A stretch of 64,000 nucleotides of DNA from Chromatiaceae bacterium (GTDB taxonomy: Bacteria; Pseudomonadota; Gammaproteobacteria; Chromatiales; Chromatiaceae), in the NCBI GenBank assembly GCA_013426805.1, contig JACDZG010000008.1, positions 1 through 64,000 on the forward strand, given 5' to 3'. Below the pieces are notes generated by a model. That model had not been told where the DNA came from. It did not search any database and worked only from the letters and a program-made list of their open reading frames with translations. This document shows positions 23,776 through 30,163 of the stretch, in pieces (within the stretch, counting starts at the first letter, position 1; the number at the start of each line of letters is the position of its first letter). Both the position numbers and the translations under genes were made by a program.

Positions 23776-25239
23776 TCAATCTTTGATCTTCACGAAAAAC
23801 AACAGCGCCATGGCCGGCAGCGAGGCGAGAAAACCGATTATGAAGAGCCCGATATAGTCGACCTGCTCGACAATGACCCCGCCCATACCGCCGAATAGTG
23901 CGGAGAACACCGACATGAAGGCCGACCCGATGGCGTAATGACCGGCCTTGAATTCGGGTTTGCAGGTGCGCAGGATATAGACGATGAGCACGGCGTTACC
24001 CAGACCCGCGGCGATCTGCTCGATTGTATAGACGGTCCCGATGGTCAGGAATCCCAGCGTGCTGGTCGCCAGGGGGCGCTCATAGGCCAGCCAGATATAG
24101 GCGAGGATATTGATGTTCATCAACAGCGTCAGCGGCCAGATGGCCCGACGCAACCCGGTGCGTTTGATCCAGAGTCCGCCGATCGTGGTCCCGATGATGG
24201 AACCCACCAACCCCAGCAGACCGCTCATCCAGGCGAGCTGGGTGTTGTCCACTAATAGATAGCGCTTGAGGAACGGCGTGCCCATGGAGAAAATGATCTC
24301 ATCGCCGATCTTGTAGAACATAATAAAGGCCAGGCTCAGCGCAATCACGGGTTTAGCCTGGGCCAGCAGCGCGATCAGCATGAAGGCGAAACCATAGGTC
24401 AGGGCCGGTACCCCAGGAACGCCCAGCGCCAAGAGTACCGCACTCAGGGCCAAGCCAAGCAGGGGGGCGCTGATCAGGGCGATGAGCGAGCGACGCGGCG
24501 AGACCTCGAGGTAAGCGGCGAAGGAGTTCAGGAAGGCCGCGCCCGCGTGGCGACCACCGACGCTGCGTTCCCGCGGCGACTGGTAGCGCGGGAGCTTGAC
24601 CAGATGCACTATCGTCAGAACAGCCATCACCGCCGCCCCTGCCGCGAAGCCGCAACCCCAGGCGCTGTACAGATTGCCGCCAAAGGCGTGCTTGGCGACC
24701 TCCGCAACCGCCAGAATGATCCCAAAGCGCGCCACGATCATCGCCAGACGGTAGGCCGTGACCCGCAACCCGGTATAGCCCGCCTGTTGTTTGGGGTCGC
24801 TGATTCCCTCCATGTAATAACCATCGATGGCGACATCATTGGTGGCCGCGAGAAACGCCATGAGGATGAAAAGACACACCAGAATGGCATCGGGTAACCC
24901 TGCCCCATCCCCGCGGACGAGGCAGAGTCCGGCCAGCAGCGCCGTCAGCACGGTGAGCAGAGCCTGGATCAGGATCATCCAGGTGCGCCGGGTGGAGTAG
25001 ATATCCACGAAGGGCGCCCACAAGAACTTCAGATTCCAGGGCAGGCCCAGGAAGTTGAGATAACCTAATGCGCGTTCGGACATTCCGACATCGGTGAAGA
25101 AGACCGACGACATGGCACGCACAACCATGTAGGGGAAGCCTTGGGCGAAATAGGTGGAAAAGACCCACCACCGCGGATCACCGAGTGGATCGGGGAGTGC
25201 AGCAGATCGACACGCGTCGCGGTCTGCGGGGCTATCCAT
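23776..25239 (-). CDS. AmpG-like MFS permease
   Basis: A 487-residue membrane protein with about 12 hydrophobic segments. N-terminal features fit the AmpG/PAT group of major facilitators: FSTYFAQGFPYMVVRAMSSVFF, FLGLPWNLKFLWAPFVD (the conserved W-KFLWAP-D) and ATNDVAIDGYYME. AmpG imports anhydromuropeptides during wall recycling; some relatives carry other solutes. The ATG at 25239 is supported by AGGAGG five bases upstream, and it overlaps the end of the preceding reductase gene by 8 bp. Substrate not certain. Confidence 0.82.
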   Translation of the reverse strand: MDSPADRDACRSAALPDPLGDPRWWVFSTYFAQGFPYMVVRAMSSVFFTDVGMSERALGYLNFLGLPWNLKFLWAPFVDIYSTRRTWMILIQALLTVLTALLAGLCLVRGDGAGLPDAILVCLFILMAFLAATNDVAIDGYYMEGISDPKQQAGYTGLRVTAYRLAMIVARFGIILAVAEVAKHAFGGNLYSAWGCGFAAGAAVMAVLTIVHLVKLPRYQSPRERSVGGRHAGAAFLNSFAAYLEVSPRRSLIALISAPLLGLALSAVLLALGVPGVPALTYGFAFMLIALLAQAKPVIALSLAFIMFYKIGDEIIFSMGTPFLKRYLLVDNTQLAWMSGLLGLVGSIIGTTIGGLWIKRTGLRRAIWPLTLLMNINILAYIWLAYERPLATSTLGFLTIGTVYTIEQIAAGLGNAVLIVYILRTCKPEFKAGHYAIGSAFMSVFSALFGGMGGVIVEQVDYIGLFIIGFLASLPAMALLFFVKIKD

Positions 25240-26137
25240 GAACCTCCTGGTGCGCACTGCGACCGCCGCTCATGGCCTCCAGGACCTTATAGATGGCCGC
25301 GGAGTCCTCTTCACCCAACCCTTGGCCGACCAGGGCGTTGAGGTATTGGGCGATGGTCGCGGCGCTCGGCAATGCCAGGCCAAGTTCAAGCGCGGACTCG
25401 CCGACGATGCGCATGTCCTTCTGGTGCAGCCGCGCCTTGAAGCCAGGGGCGAAATTGCTGTCGATCATGCGCTGTCCGTGGACCTCCAGGATACGACTGG
25501 CGGCGAATCCGCCCAGCAAGGCCTCGCGGACCCGCGCCGGATCGACGCCGGAGGCACGCGCCAGCAGGATTGCCTCAGCCACCCCGACGATGGTCGCGCC
25601 CACCACGATCTGGTTGCATGACTTGCAGACCTGGCCGGCACCGCTCCCACCGACATGGACGATGTTGCGCCCCAACACCGCGAATAGCGGTCGAACCCGA
25701 TCGACGACCTCCGCCTCACCGCCGACCATGATCGATAGCGTGCCCGCGATGGCACCGGCCTCACCGCCCGAGACCGGGGCATCGAGCATGGCCAGACCGC
25801 GCTCGCGCAACCGCGCGGCGAGGGAGCGGGTGACGGCGGGCGAGATGGTGCTCATATCCACCAGCACGGCGCCGGGGCTCGCCCCTGCGATGACCCCCTC
25901 CGGCCCGAGGATGACCTGCTCCACGTCGGCGGTGTCCGCCACCATGGTGAAGATGATGTCCGCGTGGCGGGCAACCTCAGCCGGACTAGCGCAGGTCGCG
26001 GCGCCGGCCGCGGCCAGGGGTTCCATCGACTCCGGGCGACGGGCATGGACGGCCAGGTCCCACCCGGCGCGCAGCACATTCAGCGCCATGGGGCGACCCA
26101 TGATCCCCAGCCCGATGAAACCGACGCGCTCTGCCAT
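25232..26137 (-). CDS. glxR: 2-hydroxy-3-oxopropionate reductase
   Basis: A 301-residue beta-hydroxyacid dehydrogenase. The NAD(P) motif is GFIGLGIMGRPMA at the N-terminus; the substrate signature DAPVSGGEAGAIAGTL lies near residue 120, and the catalytic Lys in GQVCKSCNQ near residue 171. The family includes 3-hydroxyisobutyrate dehydrogenase and tartronate semialdehyde reductase. The adjacent glcF-glcE genes favour the latter: glyoxylate to tartronate semialdehyde to glycerate. The glyoxylate carboligase gene is not in view. Assignment of the exact substrate is inference. Confidence 0.82.
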   Translation of the reverse strand: MAERVGFIGLGIMGRPMALNVLRAGWDLAVHARRPESMEPLAAAGAATCASPAEVARHADIIFTMVADTADVEQVILGPEGVIAGASPGAVLVDMSTISPAVTRSLAARLRERGLAMLDAPVSGGEAGAIAGTLSIMVGGEAEVVDRVRPLFAVLGRNIVHVGGSGAGQVCKSCNQIVVGATIVGVAEAILLARASGVDPARVREALLGGFAASRILEVHGQRMIDSNFAPGFKARLHQKDMRIVGESALELGLALPSAATIAQYLNALVGQGLGEEDSAAIYKVLEAMSGGRSAHQEVHG

Positions 26138-26170
26138 GCTGGTTACTCTAGCGGATTTGAACCTGACGCT

Positions 26171-27385
26171 TCAATTGCCTGGGTCCAAGAGTTCGAGCCA
26201 GTGTACCACCGGGACCCCACTGCCGGCCCCCAGGTGCAGTTGACAACCGATATTGGCAGTCGCGATCAGTTCCGGCGCACCAGATTCCAAGGCGGCGACT
26301 TTGTTCGAGCGCAACTGAAGCGACAACTCGGGTTGAGTCAGCGAATAGGTGCCGGCGGAGCCGCAACACAGGTGAGCGTCCGGCACGGCGCTTAAGGTAA
26401 AGCCGAGCCGGGTGAGAATACCTTCGACCACACCCTTGATCTGTTGCCCGTGCTGGAGCGTGCAGGGGGCGTGGAAGGCAATGCGCCGACCCCGACCCGG
26501 TGTCCCCAGCGGGCTCAAGTCCGCCGCCGCCAGCCACTCGGCCGGATCGCGGGCTAAGGCCGACACCCGCGCGGCCTTCTCGGCATAGACAGGATCATCG
26601 CGCAACAGGTCGCCGTAGTCTTTCACCATGCCCGCGCAGGCGCTCGCGGTGACCAGGATAGTCTCGCAACCAGCCGCTATCTCAGGCCACCAGGCGTCGA
26701 TGTTACGGCGCATGGCATCCAGGCCCTCGTCTTGGGCATTGAGGTGATACGCGACCGCCCCGCAGCATCCGGCGGCGGGACTGGTGATCAGGTCGACACC
26801 AAGCCGGTCGAGCAGGCGGGCCGCCGCCGCATTGGTCAGGGGTGTGGCGACCGACTGAACACAGCCGGCCAACACCAGGCAGCGCCGCCGACCGCGCGGC
26901 GCGGGCCAGTCCCCGGCCGGACAGGCCCGCGGCACCTTGGCCGCCAGCGCGGCCGGCAGCAGGGGCCGCACCAGCCGACCGAGGCCGAGCAGCGGACGCA
27001 GCCGGGCCGGGTGCGGCAGCAGCCGGACCAATGCGGTGCGCAGCAGCCGCTCGCCGACCGGCCGCGCGACCCGCTCTTCCACCAGATGACGGCCGATCTC
27101 GGCCAGCCGGGCATAGCGCACCCCGGACGGACAGGTGGTCTCGCAGGAGCGGCAGGTGAGACAGCGGTCCAGGTGCTGCTGCGTGATACGCGTCGGGGTA
27201 TGGCCTTCGAGGACTTGCTTGATCTGGTAGATTCGCCCGCGTGGTCCGTCCAGCTCGTCGCCCAATAACTGATAGGTGGGGCAGGTGGCGGTACAGAAAC
27301 CACAGTGGACGCAACTGCGCAGGATGGCATCGGCCTCGCGTCCCGCGGGGGTGGCAAGAAACTCCGGAAGGATCTGGGTCTGCAC
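26171..27385 (-). CDS. glcF: Glycolate oxidase iron-sulfur subunit
   Basis: A 404-residue protein with two [4Fe-4S] motifs near the N-terminus, CVHCGFCTATCP (~26-37) and CLTCRSCETTCP (~75-86). Two CCG-type domains follow (AGCCGAVAYHL and CCGSAGTYSLTQ, with LAGCVQS). GlcF passes electrons from the GlcD/GlcE flavoproteins to the quinone pool. It lies 9 bp downstream of glcE, so both are in one operon. In an autotroph this pathway recovers the glycolate formed by RuBisCO. Confidence 0.92.
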   Translation of the reverse strand: MQTQILPEFLATPAGREADAILRSCVHCGFCTATCPTYQLLGDELDGPRGRIYQIKQVLEGHTPTRITQQHLDRCLTCRSCETTCPSGVRYARLAEIGRHLVEERVARPVGERLLRTALVRLLPHPARLRPLLGLGRLVRPLLPAALAAKVPRACPAGDWPAPRGRRRCLVLAGCVQSVATPLTNAAAARLLDRLGVDLITSPAAGCCGAVAYHLNAQDEGLDAMRRNIDAWWPEIAAGCETILVTASACAGMVKDYGDLLRDDPVYAEKAARVSALARDPAEWLAAADLSPLGTPGRGRRIAFHAPCTLQHGQQIKGVVEGILTRLGFTLSAVPDAHLCCGSAGTYSLTQPELSLQLRSNKVAALESGAPELIATANIGCQLHLGAGSGVPVVHWLELLDPGN

Positions 27386-27394
27386 GGGTGGCCC

Positions 27395-28495
27395 TCAAAG
27401 GTCCTGATACAGTCGGCCGGGATTGAGAATACCGGCGGGGTCGAAGGCACGCTTGAGGTTGCGATGCAGGGCCAGCAGCGGCGCCGACAAGGGCTGGAAA
27501 ACCTCGCCGGTGCGGTCACCGCCACGGAACAGCGTTGCGTGACCGCCCGCGCGGGCGACCAGCGCGCGGATCACCGCGGGCGCGGCACCACTACGCAGCC
27601 AGCGCTGGGCACCGCCCCACTCCAGGAGTTGCGGACCCGGCAGGTCCAGGGGCGGCGTCGCTGCCGGCAGAGCGCAGCGCCACAGGGGTAAGTCGCCTTG
27701 GAAAAAGGCGTGGCCCTGTTCACGGACCTGATCCTCCCAGAAAGCGACGGCATCCGCATCCGCCAGCGGTTCGCCGCCGATGCGTTCGGCCGCGGCGCGG
27801 ACCCCTTGGGCGGCCCCGGCCAGACGCACCCACAGCCGTCCGCCGCCCCCGGAGTCGACCCAGCAGGAGGCCGTGATGGGCAGGGGCTGCGCCGCCCACC
27901 GCTCCATCCGCACCAGGGCCTCGGCTTGACTACAATCCTGCATCAGGGTCCGGGACTCGGCCGGAGACGGCAACACCTTGACGCTGATGTCCAGGAGCAC
28001 GCCCAGGGTCCCGAACGCCCCGACCATGAGGCGGGAACAATCGTAACCCGCCACGTTTTTCATCACCTCGCCCCCAAAGCGCAGGATCTCCGCCCGGCCG
28101 GTGAGAATGCGGGCACCCAGCACCAGGTCGCGGATTGCGCCGCCGGACGGCCGGGCGGGGCCGGAGAGACCGCAGGCGACGGTGCCGCCCAGGGTCGCGC
28201 CGACACCCAGCCGCAGCGGTTCGCAGGGGAGATGCTGGCCGTGCTCGGCCAGCGCGGCCTCGATGGCCGCCAGGGTGGTCCCAGCGCGGGCGGTCACCAC
28301 CAGCTCCTTGGGCTGGTAATTGATGATCCCGGCATGTCCGGACAGATCCAGCGGCGTGGTGCCCGCCGCGACCTGACGGCCGAGCCGGGTCTTGGTTCCG
28401 GCTCCGCGCAGGTTCAATGAGCGGCCAGTCGCCGCGGCCGCCCGCAGCTGATCGAGCAGCGCGGCCGTGAGATCGCCATCGGCGTCGGTAGTCAT
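27395..28495 (-). CDS. glcE: Glycolate oxidase FAD-binding subunit
   Basis: A 366-residue FAD-binding type 4 oxidase subunit. LRGAGTKTRLGR near residue 23 and VVTARAGTTLAAIEAAL are FAD contacts; GGTVACGLSGPARPSGGAIRDLVLG is the conserved pyrophosphate region. It ends AFDPAGILNPGRLY, as usual for the family. It is the first gene of the run; glcD, normally upstream, is not here, because the next upstream gene runs in the opposite direction. Confidence 0.92.
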   Translation of the reverse strand: MTTDADGDLTAALLDQLRAAAATGRSLNLRGAGTKTRLGRQVAAGTTPLDLSGHAGIINYQPKELVVTARAGTTLAAIEAALAEHGQHLPCEPLRLGVGATLGGTVACGLSGPARPSGGAIRDLVLGARILTGRAEILRFGGEVMKNVAGYDCSRLMVGAFGTLGVLLDISVKVLPSPAESRTLMQDCSQAEALVRMERWAAQPLPITASCWVDSGGGGRLWVRLAGAAQGVRAAAERIGGEPLADADAVAFWEDQVREQGHAFFQGDLPLWRCALPAATPPLDLPGPQLLEWGGAQRWLRSGAAPAVIRALVARAGGHATLFRGGDRTGEVFQPLSAPLLALHRNLKRAFDPAGILNPGRLYQDL

Positions 28496-28693: not shown

Positions 28694-30163
28694 ATGGGCT
28701 ATCTGAGTCTCTCTCGCGCCGCCCGCCTGGCCGGGGTCACCCGCGCCGAGATCCAGCGGCGTATCCGCCGCGGCGACCTCGAGACCTTCGAGGGTGCCGT
28801 CGCGATCCAGGATTTGTTGCTGCTCTACCCGGCGGTGAGTCTTCATGACGACGAGGCACTGATCCGGGTGGAGCGGATCAAGTCCGCTGCCGTGCCGAAG
28901 TCTCAGCACGCCGATACCATCCTGCCCAGCCCCGAGGTCCTGGTCGCACGTCTGCGCGGCCTGAGCGCGACGCTGGTCGAGCGGATGTCGGCCCTGACCG
29001 CAACCGAGGCGCTGCTGGACGAGGTCGGCGCACGGCTCCTGGCCCTCCCGTGCGGTGATCAGGGCCCATCCGCGGCGGCGATCAGCGCATTGCAAGACTG
29101 GTTTGCACAAGCCCGCCAGGCACTGGCGAAGCGACCAACGACAGACCAGAAGGCCCAACTGCTGGCGAAAGACACTTTCCTGCGCATCATGGCTGCCAAC
29201 TGTAAACTGATCCCGAGCGGGCACGACTTCTTCATTGAGGGCGCCGAATCCATCCTGGATGCCTCGGTGCGCGCCGGCCTCAAGCTGGGTTACGGCTGCG
29301 CCAGCGGCAACTGCGGGGAATGCAAGGTCCGCGTGCTGAGCGGTGAGGTCGCCAGGACGCGCGATCACGACTATGTGCTGAGCGAGCGCGAGAAACAGTT
29401 GGGCTACATTCTCACCTGCTCGACGACGGCGGTCACCGACTTGGTCCTTGAGGCGGCCGAGGCGCTGTCGGTGCAAGACCTGCCGCACCAGGAGATCCGC
29501 GCCAGCCTGCGCAAGCTGGAGTCGCTCGCCCCGGATCTGGTAAGCCTGAATGTCCAGACCCCACGCACCCACACGTTGCGCTTCATGGCCGGCCAGCGTG
29601 TCACCTTGACCCTGGAGGGCGGCGCCAGCCGTGACCTGCCGATTGCGAGCTGTCCGTGCAACGGACGCAATCTCTGGTTCTACGTCCGCCGCGGGACGGA
29701 CGCCTTCTCGGCGGCCGTGTTCGACGGACTTAACGCCGGGCAATTGATTAAGGTGACCGGTCCGCAGGGGACCTTCGTACTGCGCGAGGACGCACCGGAA
29801 CCCACGGTATTCATCGCAATCGGCGACGGCATCGCGCCCATGAAAAGCCTGATCGAGCACGCCGTCTCCATCGATCTGATCGAGTCATTCCACCTCTACT
29901 GGGGTACCATCTACCCCGAGGGGCACTACCAAAGCCGCTGGGGACGCGCGCTCAAAGACGCCTTGGACAATTTCAGCGTTACGCTGCTGACCAGCGACGC
30001 GGCGGGGGACCTGATCGCAGCACTTCAAACGGACCATGCGGATCTCAGCGGCCTGCGCTTCTATCTCGCCGGGCCGGCCGCCGCGGTGCACGCCAGCGCG
30101 GCGGCGCTGAGCGCGCTTGGCGTCGCCCAGGAACAGATGGCAAGCGAATACACGGAGACCTGA
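28694..30163 (+). CDS. 2Fe-2S flavoreductase with HTH-like N-terminus
   Basis: A 489-residue fusion. Residues 4-50 (YLSLSRAARLAGVTRAEIQR and DLETFEGAVAIQD) look like a small helix-turn-helix of the MerR/excisionase kind. Residues 75-165 are helical. Residues 170-255 form a plant-type 2Fe-2S ferredoxin with Cys202, Cys207, Cys210 and Cys242. Residues 265-480 are a ferredoxin-NADP reductase-like flavin/NAD unit with GDGIAPMKSL near 377 and YLAGP near 457. The usual flavin RxYS motif is DLPIAS here. The start at 28694 is a choice among few options and lacks a good ribosome site. Partner unknown; electron transfer to an oxygenase or desaturase is typical for this architecture. Confidence 0.78.
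   Translation: MGYLSLSRAARLAGVTRAEIQRRIRRGDLETFEGAVAIQDLLLLYPAVSLHDDEALIRVERIKSAAVPKSQHADTILPSPEVLVARLRGLSATLVERMSALTATEALLDEVGARLLALPCGDQGPSAAAISALQDWFAQARQALAKRPTTDQKAQLLAKDTFLRIMAANCKLIPSGHDFFIEGAESILDASVRAGLKLGYGCASGNCGECKVRVLSGEVARTRDHDYVLSEREKQLGYILTCSTTAVTDLVLEAAEALSVQDLPHQEIRASLRKLESLAPDLVSLNVQTPRTHTLRFMAGQRVTLTLEGGASRDLPIASCPCNGRNLWFYVRRGTDAFSAAVFDGLNAGQLIKVTGPQGTFVLREDAPEPTVFIAIGDGIAPMKSLIEHAVSIDLIESFHLYWGTIYPEGHYQSRWGRALKDALDNFSVTLLTSDAAGDLIAALQTDHADLSGLRFYLAGPAAAVHASAAALSALGVAQEQMASEYTET

Follow-up and report, generated by a model that had tools for sequence, protein, structure and literature searches.

The gene at positions 28694–30163 of the window, the whole 64,000-nucleotide stretch of DNA analysed here, encodes a 489-residue protein in which a MerR/Xis-like helix-turn-helix (HTH) domain, here called the head, is joined through a helical spacer to a body made up of a 2Fe-2S ferredoxin (Fer2) domain and a degenerate FNR fold. 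The real context of this gene family, which an earlier sequence-only reading of the same DNA did not mention, is the Dsr sulfur-oxidation system. Reverse Dsr is a main route by which stored sulfur is oxidised in purple sulfur bacteria and in many symbionts. The best-supported reading of the family, held tentatively and at slightly less than an even chance, is that of a Dsr-associated redox-responsive regulator with putative DNA binding by the head; its chief rival is an electron-transfer accessory of Dsr. A conserved two-part gene set at the ends of dsr operons is a candidate either for control of the pathway or for an unrecognised electron-transfer step, and the family may supply a missing redox switch or helper of stored-sulfur oxidation.

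Architecture of the protein

The gene and its parts, all on the forward strand, are as follows.

28694–30163, +, whole gene, 489 aa: HTH, helical spacer, 2Fe-2S ferredoxin and degenerate FNR; the ATG start is kept in close relatives
28694–28834, +, predicted MerR/Xis/BldC-like winged HTH, aa 1–47, with recognition-helix residues R17, Q21 and R25 and an acidic TFEG wing
28853–29191, +, helical spacer, aa 54–166, poorly conserved, with predicted helices at 54–65, 80–117, 127–146 and 152–166
29195–29461, +, 2Fe-2S ferredoxin domain, aa 168–256, with invariant cluster cysteines C202, C207, C210 and C242
29489–29788, +, FAD-type beta-barrel lobe, aa 266–365, RxYS lost
29651–29659, +, invariant Cys-Pro-Cys (C320-P321-C322), adjoining the lost flavin motif
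29789–30160, +, NAD-type lobe, aa 366–489, with the GGTG loop changed to xGDG and the CGP-type motif to AGP

In Pfam searches with the window protein, the Fer2 match was significant (E 4.7e-12), while FAD_binding_6 fell exactly at its cut-off (21.1 bits) and NAD_binding_1 below it. The NCBIfam BenC model matched with an E value of 1.8e-33, though at 116 bits this misses the curated equivalog cut-off of 430, and all other BenC-type curated cut-offs were also missed by a wide margin. The best PDB matches were GcoB and BenC, and the whole-chain fold is that of the BenC/NqrF/Fre-type reductases (Z 25–27). Among named cultured relatives, Lamprocystis purpurea DSM 4197 is the closest (93% identity). 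The genome of the window (approximately 7.6 Mb) contains one fused gene, one canonical ferredoxin-reductase paralogue (C27) and a weak third match.

The motifs of 60 fused proteins were compared with those of 20 sister enzymes encoded in the same set of genomes; a putative 21st sister (L210) carries the Cys-Pro-Cys motif and is itself a family member. The four cluster cysteines are kept in 60/60 fused proteins. The RxYS motif is not: R is found in 27, F or Y at position 315 in 3 and S316 in 10 of the 60, and each is present in 20/20 sisters. In the GGTGxxP loop, T378 remains in a single fused protein but in all sisters, and position 376 is mostly F, L, H, K, I or C in place of G, with the GxxP part retained. 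The Cys-Pro-Cys at 320–322 is found in 60/60 fused proteins and 13/13 unfused relatives but in 0/20 sisters. As RxYS and GGTG are degraded family-wide, with an invariant Cys-Pro-Cys instead, the label flavin reductase is doubtful, and a flavoenzyme fold seems to have been repurposed in this family. The altered flavin motif that the sequence-only reading had pointed out in the window protein (DLPIAS for RxYS) is thus a property of the family. Its description of the reductase unit as complete holds for the fold but not for the set of catalytic and cofactor motifs, and its proposal that the protein reads NAD(P)H flux is unsupported, since degraded NAD and flavin motifs are a family-wide feature. 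The family has a second signature, R-x5-L-D-x-F at 29939–29980 (aa 416–429), which is present in the head-bearing and most of the split proteins and absent from the sister reductases.

The head was modelled with AlphaFold both as part of a module comprising aa 1–169 (57-row alignment; mean pLDDT 84.8, and 92–97 over residues 1–40) and in the full-length protein (56-row alignment; mean pLDDT 82.7), and both models give a strand-helix-turn-helix-wing-helix. Because FNR folds took up the list of matches to the full-length model, the head was searched on its own; families missing from either list are not thereby excluded. Residues 1–47 superpose on BldC (6ama; Z 6.4, 47 aa, 1.7 Å) and on Pukovnik Xis (4j2n; Z 6.3, 47 residues, 1.8 Å), and more weakly on SoxR (2zhh; Z 4.6, 48 residues, 2.9 Å), with CbpM (3ucs; Z 4.6) also among the fold neighbours; as Z values below 8 may reflect a common arrangement, the assignment leans on matches that span almost all of a 50-residue domain and on the large number of DNA-binding proteins among the relatives listed. 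Foldseek alone returned no row at E ≤ 0.001 for the head. No Pfam HTH model exceeded its curated cut-off for the window protein (HTH_17 scored 16.1 bits against 27), so the head is sub-threshold by sequence alone; the best HTH_17 match in any family member had an E value of 4.2e-5. At the level of predicted fold, the HTH is confirmed as real. The MerR/excisionase-like segment noticed by the sequence-only reading is therefore borne out as a predicted winged helix at high pLDDT matching BldC and Xis, the structure prediction that it proposed having returned an HTH, and predicted helices likewise bear out the spacer that it placed between head and ferredoxin.

Over 61 aligned family members, one of them a split protein (L080), mean entropy is 0.82 bits at head positions 4–46, 0.78 in Fer2 and 2.05 in spacer positions 76–165. 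Among 15 close genes, dN/pS is 0.27 for the head, 0.21 for Fer2, 0.78 for the spacer, and 0.41 and 0.52 for the FNR lobes. As its dN/pS is near that of Fer2 and well below that of the spacer, selection acts on the head as on a functional domain, and this conservation rules out a spurious extension. The recognition helix is basic in 53/57 sequences, and R17 and Q21 are invariant in an 18-row alignment (A2). Most members have an acidic wing (mean charge −1.4; positive in 6/57), unlike typical DNA-contacting wings.

Split and fused forms and their link to Dsr

A profile of the head module found matches in 81/146 genomes of the window's taxonomic family; an 82nd match (E 3.8e-4) was discarded. In the class, 49/274 genomes were positive with a head profile at E ≤ 5e-6; of the 81 class genomes at E ≤ 0.001, the other 32 were dropped as partial matches of at most 35 positions; at most 25 candidates were scored per genome, so head absences in the class are soft. 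Many of the matches are free-standing genes of approximately 145–180 residues that consist of head and coil only, and the N-terminal part of the spacer is a component of this free-standing module. At eight loci (L075, L077, L078, L080, L132, L135, L140 and L142), a free-standing head gene is followed directly by a separate ferredoxin-reductase gene, which it overlaps in L140. In four other cases (L126, L127, L128 and L137), the free-standing head gene lies after a gene of approximately 136 residues with weak Xre/ParS similarity; L126–L128 also have an unmatched gene of approximately 110 residues and, further upstream, a dihydrolipoyl-dehydrogenase-like gene.

The search for the same fusion in other genomes that had been suggested was successful. 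In a tree built from 139 ferredoxin-reductase domains, the 82 fused proteins all group in a single clade (support 0.953) that is nested among unfused proteins and includes no head-less body; the deeper nodes of this tree are weak to moderate (0.33 to 0.92). An open frame of fused length was also matched in G647, from another class of the phylum, in a search where 5/269 genomes, including the window's own, passed E 1e-85.

The body was found in 55/274 class genomes at a threshold of at least 320 bits. Matches at E ≤ 1e-50 occur in 149 genomes, the rest being mostly paralogues at 300 bits or less, and the threshold misses at least two members, in G207 (296 bits, with the CPC motif; L210) and G212 (279 bits, with a fused-length frame). 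No convincing head was found in 16 of the 55 body-bearing class genomes, and a recheck with a longer profile was negative (18 genomes, best E 0.0018), from which we conclude that the body can work without a head.

The presence of either part tracks dsrA closely. While dsrA (TIGR02064) is present in 92/274 class genomes, it was found in 45/49 of those that bear the head (odds ratio 42.6, p 4e-21) and 51/55 of those that bear the body (odds ratio 55, p 4e-25); each set has four exceptions, and these include G322 and G330, two genomes that are 72% and 81% complete. The association with soxB, used as a control (115/274 class genomes), was weaker. Where soxB is present without dsrA, the head occurs in 3/33 and the body in 4/33 genomes; each occurs in 5/10 genomes with dsrA but not soxB, and genomes with neither gene have the head in 1/149 and the body in 0/149. 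Counting by taxonomic family, which limits the effects of kinship, a dsrA-carrying genome is found in 34/34 body-bearing and 30/31 head-bearing families versus 59 of approximately 168 overall, the last figure being the highest family label in the set. The window's own taxonomic family cannot discriminate this association because dsrA is too common there (125/146 genomes). The window's genome carries dsrA, on a different contig.

Several of the genes lie in or close to dsr clusters. Three complete clusters (L243, L244 and L245) end in dsrN-dsrR-dsrS-body, and dsrS is followed by head and then body in the complete cluster L250 and in the partial clusters L075, L077, L078 and L080, of which L075 and L250 come from the same genome (G042). 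In L248, again a complete cluster, dsrS is followed by a head gene; in L247 the head lies approximately 4 kb after dsrR, and in L246 the body is near dsrS, approximately 10 kb from dsrA. Here, dsrA was identified with TIGR02064 and dsrO with NF045797, and the remaining dsr genes were named after their order in A. vinosum as given in the available part of PMC3368242; dsrS was named by position as it had no family match of its own. The same part of that paper describes dsr as a single transcription unit with additional promoters at dsrC and dsrS, and shows that dsr mutants of A. vinosum are available. In L234, L236 and L237, the body is found beside a DsrC/TusE-like gene that lies outside the main dsr cluster.

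The window gene is flanked by an FAD_binding_4 (glcE-like) gene and a DUF4124 gene, with no dsr linkage at this locus. Across the 40 loci examined, with gene layouts for all but L080, the neighbours of the fused gene differ and no conserved operon partner was found. As the fused gene stands alone in the window's lineage, co-occurrence is the only linkage to Dsr that can be claimed there. Nothing visible connects the fused gene with the reverse-strand genes at 23776–28495 of the window, which are an AmpG-like transporter gene (identified by eye), a 3-hydroxyisobutyrate-dehydrogenase-type gene and glcF/glcE-like genes.

A palindrome upstream of dsrA

The sequence CTATCCC-N4-GGGATAG, or a close form of it, is found upstream of dsrA in nearly all of 18 loci from the window's taxonomic family. 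Exact copies of TATCCC-N4-GGGATA are present in 77/146 genomes of that family, and a reversed control pattern in 7/146. In 58 of the 119 dsrA genomes scored there (the 125 positive genomes minus six with fragmentary or low-ranked matches), an exact copy lies 178–538 bp (median 248) before dsrA. At least 10/12 palindrome positions match before dsrA in 17/20 class genomes, including 5/5 that are head-less. The palindrome does not track the head, being present in 36/74 genomes with it versus 22/45 without. As it is equally frequent without the head, it is a class-wide dsr control element and not a pointer to this protein as its reader, and in its simple form the proposal that TATCCC-N4-GGGATA is the operator of the fused protein is ruled out. 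Palindrome copies at L147–L165 and L167–L186 lie approximately 130–540 bp before dsrA, and in many Chromatiaceae a conserved block of the GTGGAATGG type is found approximately 30 bp after the palindrome. Exact copies in G031 C41 and G128 C4 (L197 and L198) lie inside a gene, presumably soxA, and are possibly due to chance.

In G008, a free-standing head gene is preceded, at a distance of 30 bp, by a perfect copy (C1:6874–6889; L136), and the only other exact copy in that genome precedes dsrA. Weaker copies (9–10/12) lie 16–19 bp before the head genes of L075, L077, L192 and L193, with shuffle p values of 0.015 and 0.06 for the last two, and none was found before five other free-standing head genes examined. 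Upstream of the fused genes the palindrome reaches at most 9/12, as by chance, and within the window it is not significant (one match at two mismatches versus 1.33 expected). No motif shared by the regions upstream of 49 fused genes was found; the dyads AGCC-N2-GGCT and ATCA-N3-TGAT seen there were rejected as artefacts since, with one exception, they stem from upstream coding sequence that is homologous among close relatives.

Candidate roles and related systems

In a redox-responsive regulator, the 2Fe-2S cluster, probably helped by the Cys-Pro-Cys dithiol, would sense the cytoplasmic redox or sulfane-sulfur state during oxidation of stored sulfur. A reductase fold that holds Cys-Pro-Cys without the normal flavin and NAD motifs would form part of the sensor, and its state would be relayed to the MerR-like head by the helical spacer, which probably dimerises; the head would then bind DNA at target promoters. 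Species with separate head and body genes would use them as a two-protein pair, and the window's family as one chain; the pattern of fused and split forms supports this reading, as a sensor-regulator pair would be expected to show it. The regulator is further supported by a head as conserved as Fer2 next to a spacer free to vary, by the fold match to DNA-binding MerR/Xis/BldC domains with a basic recognition helix in 53/57 sequences, and by the eight split neighbours and the single fused clade. Co-occurrence with dsrA, scarcity in genomes with soxB only and the position after dsrS also favour it, as do the degraded flavin and NAD motifs combined with an invariant Cys-Pro-Cys and intact cluster cysteines and, locally, the perfect palindrome shared by the head gene and dsrA in G008. 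The redox-sensing regulator of the sequence-only reading thus stands as to a conserved MerR/Xis-like head fused to an electron-transfer chain, with a split version in the same operons, but not as to NAD(P)H flux as the signal. A regulator is weakened by the acidic wing, by the failure to find a shared motif upstream of the fused genes, by the 16/55 body-bearing class genomes without a convincing head and by the window gene not being next to dsr, and its simplest version by a dsrA palindrome that does not track the head, no DNA target having been found. A more specific version is rather unlikely, namely a putative dsr regulator in which the flavin motif of a pseudo-flavoreductase has been rebuilt as a Cys-Pro-Cys switch that responds to sulfane sulfur or to the redox state in the cytoplasm and, with the 2Fe-2S ferredoxin, drives the MerR-like head, split in some sulfur oxidisers and fused in purple sulfur bacteria.

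Alternatively, and with a probability that is appreciable though clearly lower than that of a regulator in general, the body may shuttle electrons to or from a Dsr component such as DsrL, DsrAB or DsrC, with the head as a protein-docking module like CbpM, whose MerR-like domain was solved in a protein-protein complex and docks a J-domain. The body alone directly after dsrS in three complete operons, the 16 head-less genomes, the invariant Fe-S cysteines, the acidic wing and CbpM among the fold neighbours of the head all fit such an accessory. However, the degraded flavin and NAD motifs cast doubt on the usual NAD(P)H input, no target Dsr subunit was identified, and the recognition helix, basic and with R17 and Q21 invariant (A2), is what DNA binding would conserve. 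While the body-only operons are better explained by an electron-transfer accessory, the basic helix and the split pair are better explained by a regulator. The fold (Z 25–27) and the BenC match would suit a conventional NAD(P)H:flavin or ferredoxin reductase whose N-terminal extension is incidental, but we consider this improbable given the loss of RxYS (F/Y at 315 in 3/60 and S at 316 in 10/60, versus 20/20 sisters) and of T378 (1/60), a score of 116 bits against a curated 430 and a head under strong purifying selection. Least probable by far is that the N-terminus is a decayed structural leftover of the fusion, an option that the sequence-only reading had kept: sub-threshold Pfam HTH models and the acidic wing are in its favour, but it is contradicted by the entropy and dN/pS of the head and by a fused clade of 82 without a head-less body. 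No proven partner enzyme that would explain the N-terminus emerged. Grimm et al. reportedly proposed in 2010 that DsrC may bind dsr DNA.

Judged by titles and the beginnings of abstracts, no HTH-ferredoxin-FNR protein linked to dsr has been described in the open-licence PubMed Central literature, and the available parts of the dsr and sulfur-repressor papers examined name no dsr regulator of this kind. The head and body genes of relatives share their position in the dsr cluster with dsrL, dsrN, dsrR, dsrS and dsrT, but are not among the Dsr accessory genes named in the available parts of PMC3368242 and PMC11406059. The proposed role resembles that of sHdrR and the ArsR-type SoxR, sulfane-sulfur repressors with two conserved cysteines that act on sulfur-oxidation genes, in a pathway other than dsr (PMC12423496, available part); here, the head is MerR-like and is combined with a 2Fe-2S domain and FNR fold, and sulfane-sulfur sensing is putative. 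The BenC/GcoB/NqrF-type reductases have the same Fer2-FAD lobe-NAD lobe order and fold, but the present family has an additional HTH and coil, has lost RxYS and GGTG, and has gained the invariant Cys-Pro-Cys. BldC and phage Xis, which share the predicted fold of the head (47 residues, 1.7–1.8 Å), are short free-standing DNA binders, whereas here the head is joined to a redox chain and its wing is acidic. The MerR-family SoxR is alike in combining a MerR-like head (Z 4.6 over 48 residues) with a 2Fe-2S cluster. In SoxR, the cluster that is read out through the head is held in a short C-terminal cysteine loop, whereas the cluster site in this family is a whole plant-type Fer2 domain accompanied by an FNR fold.
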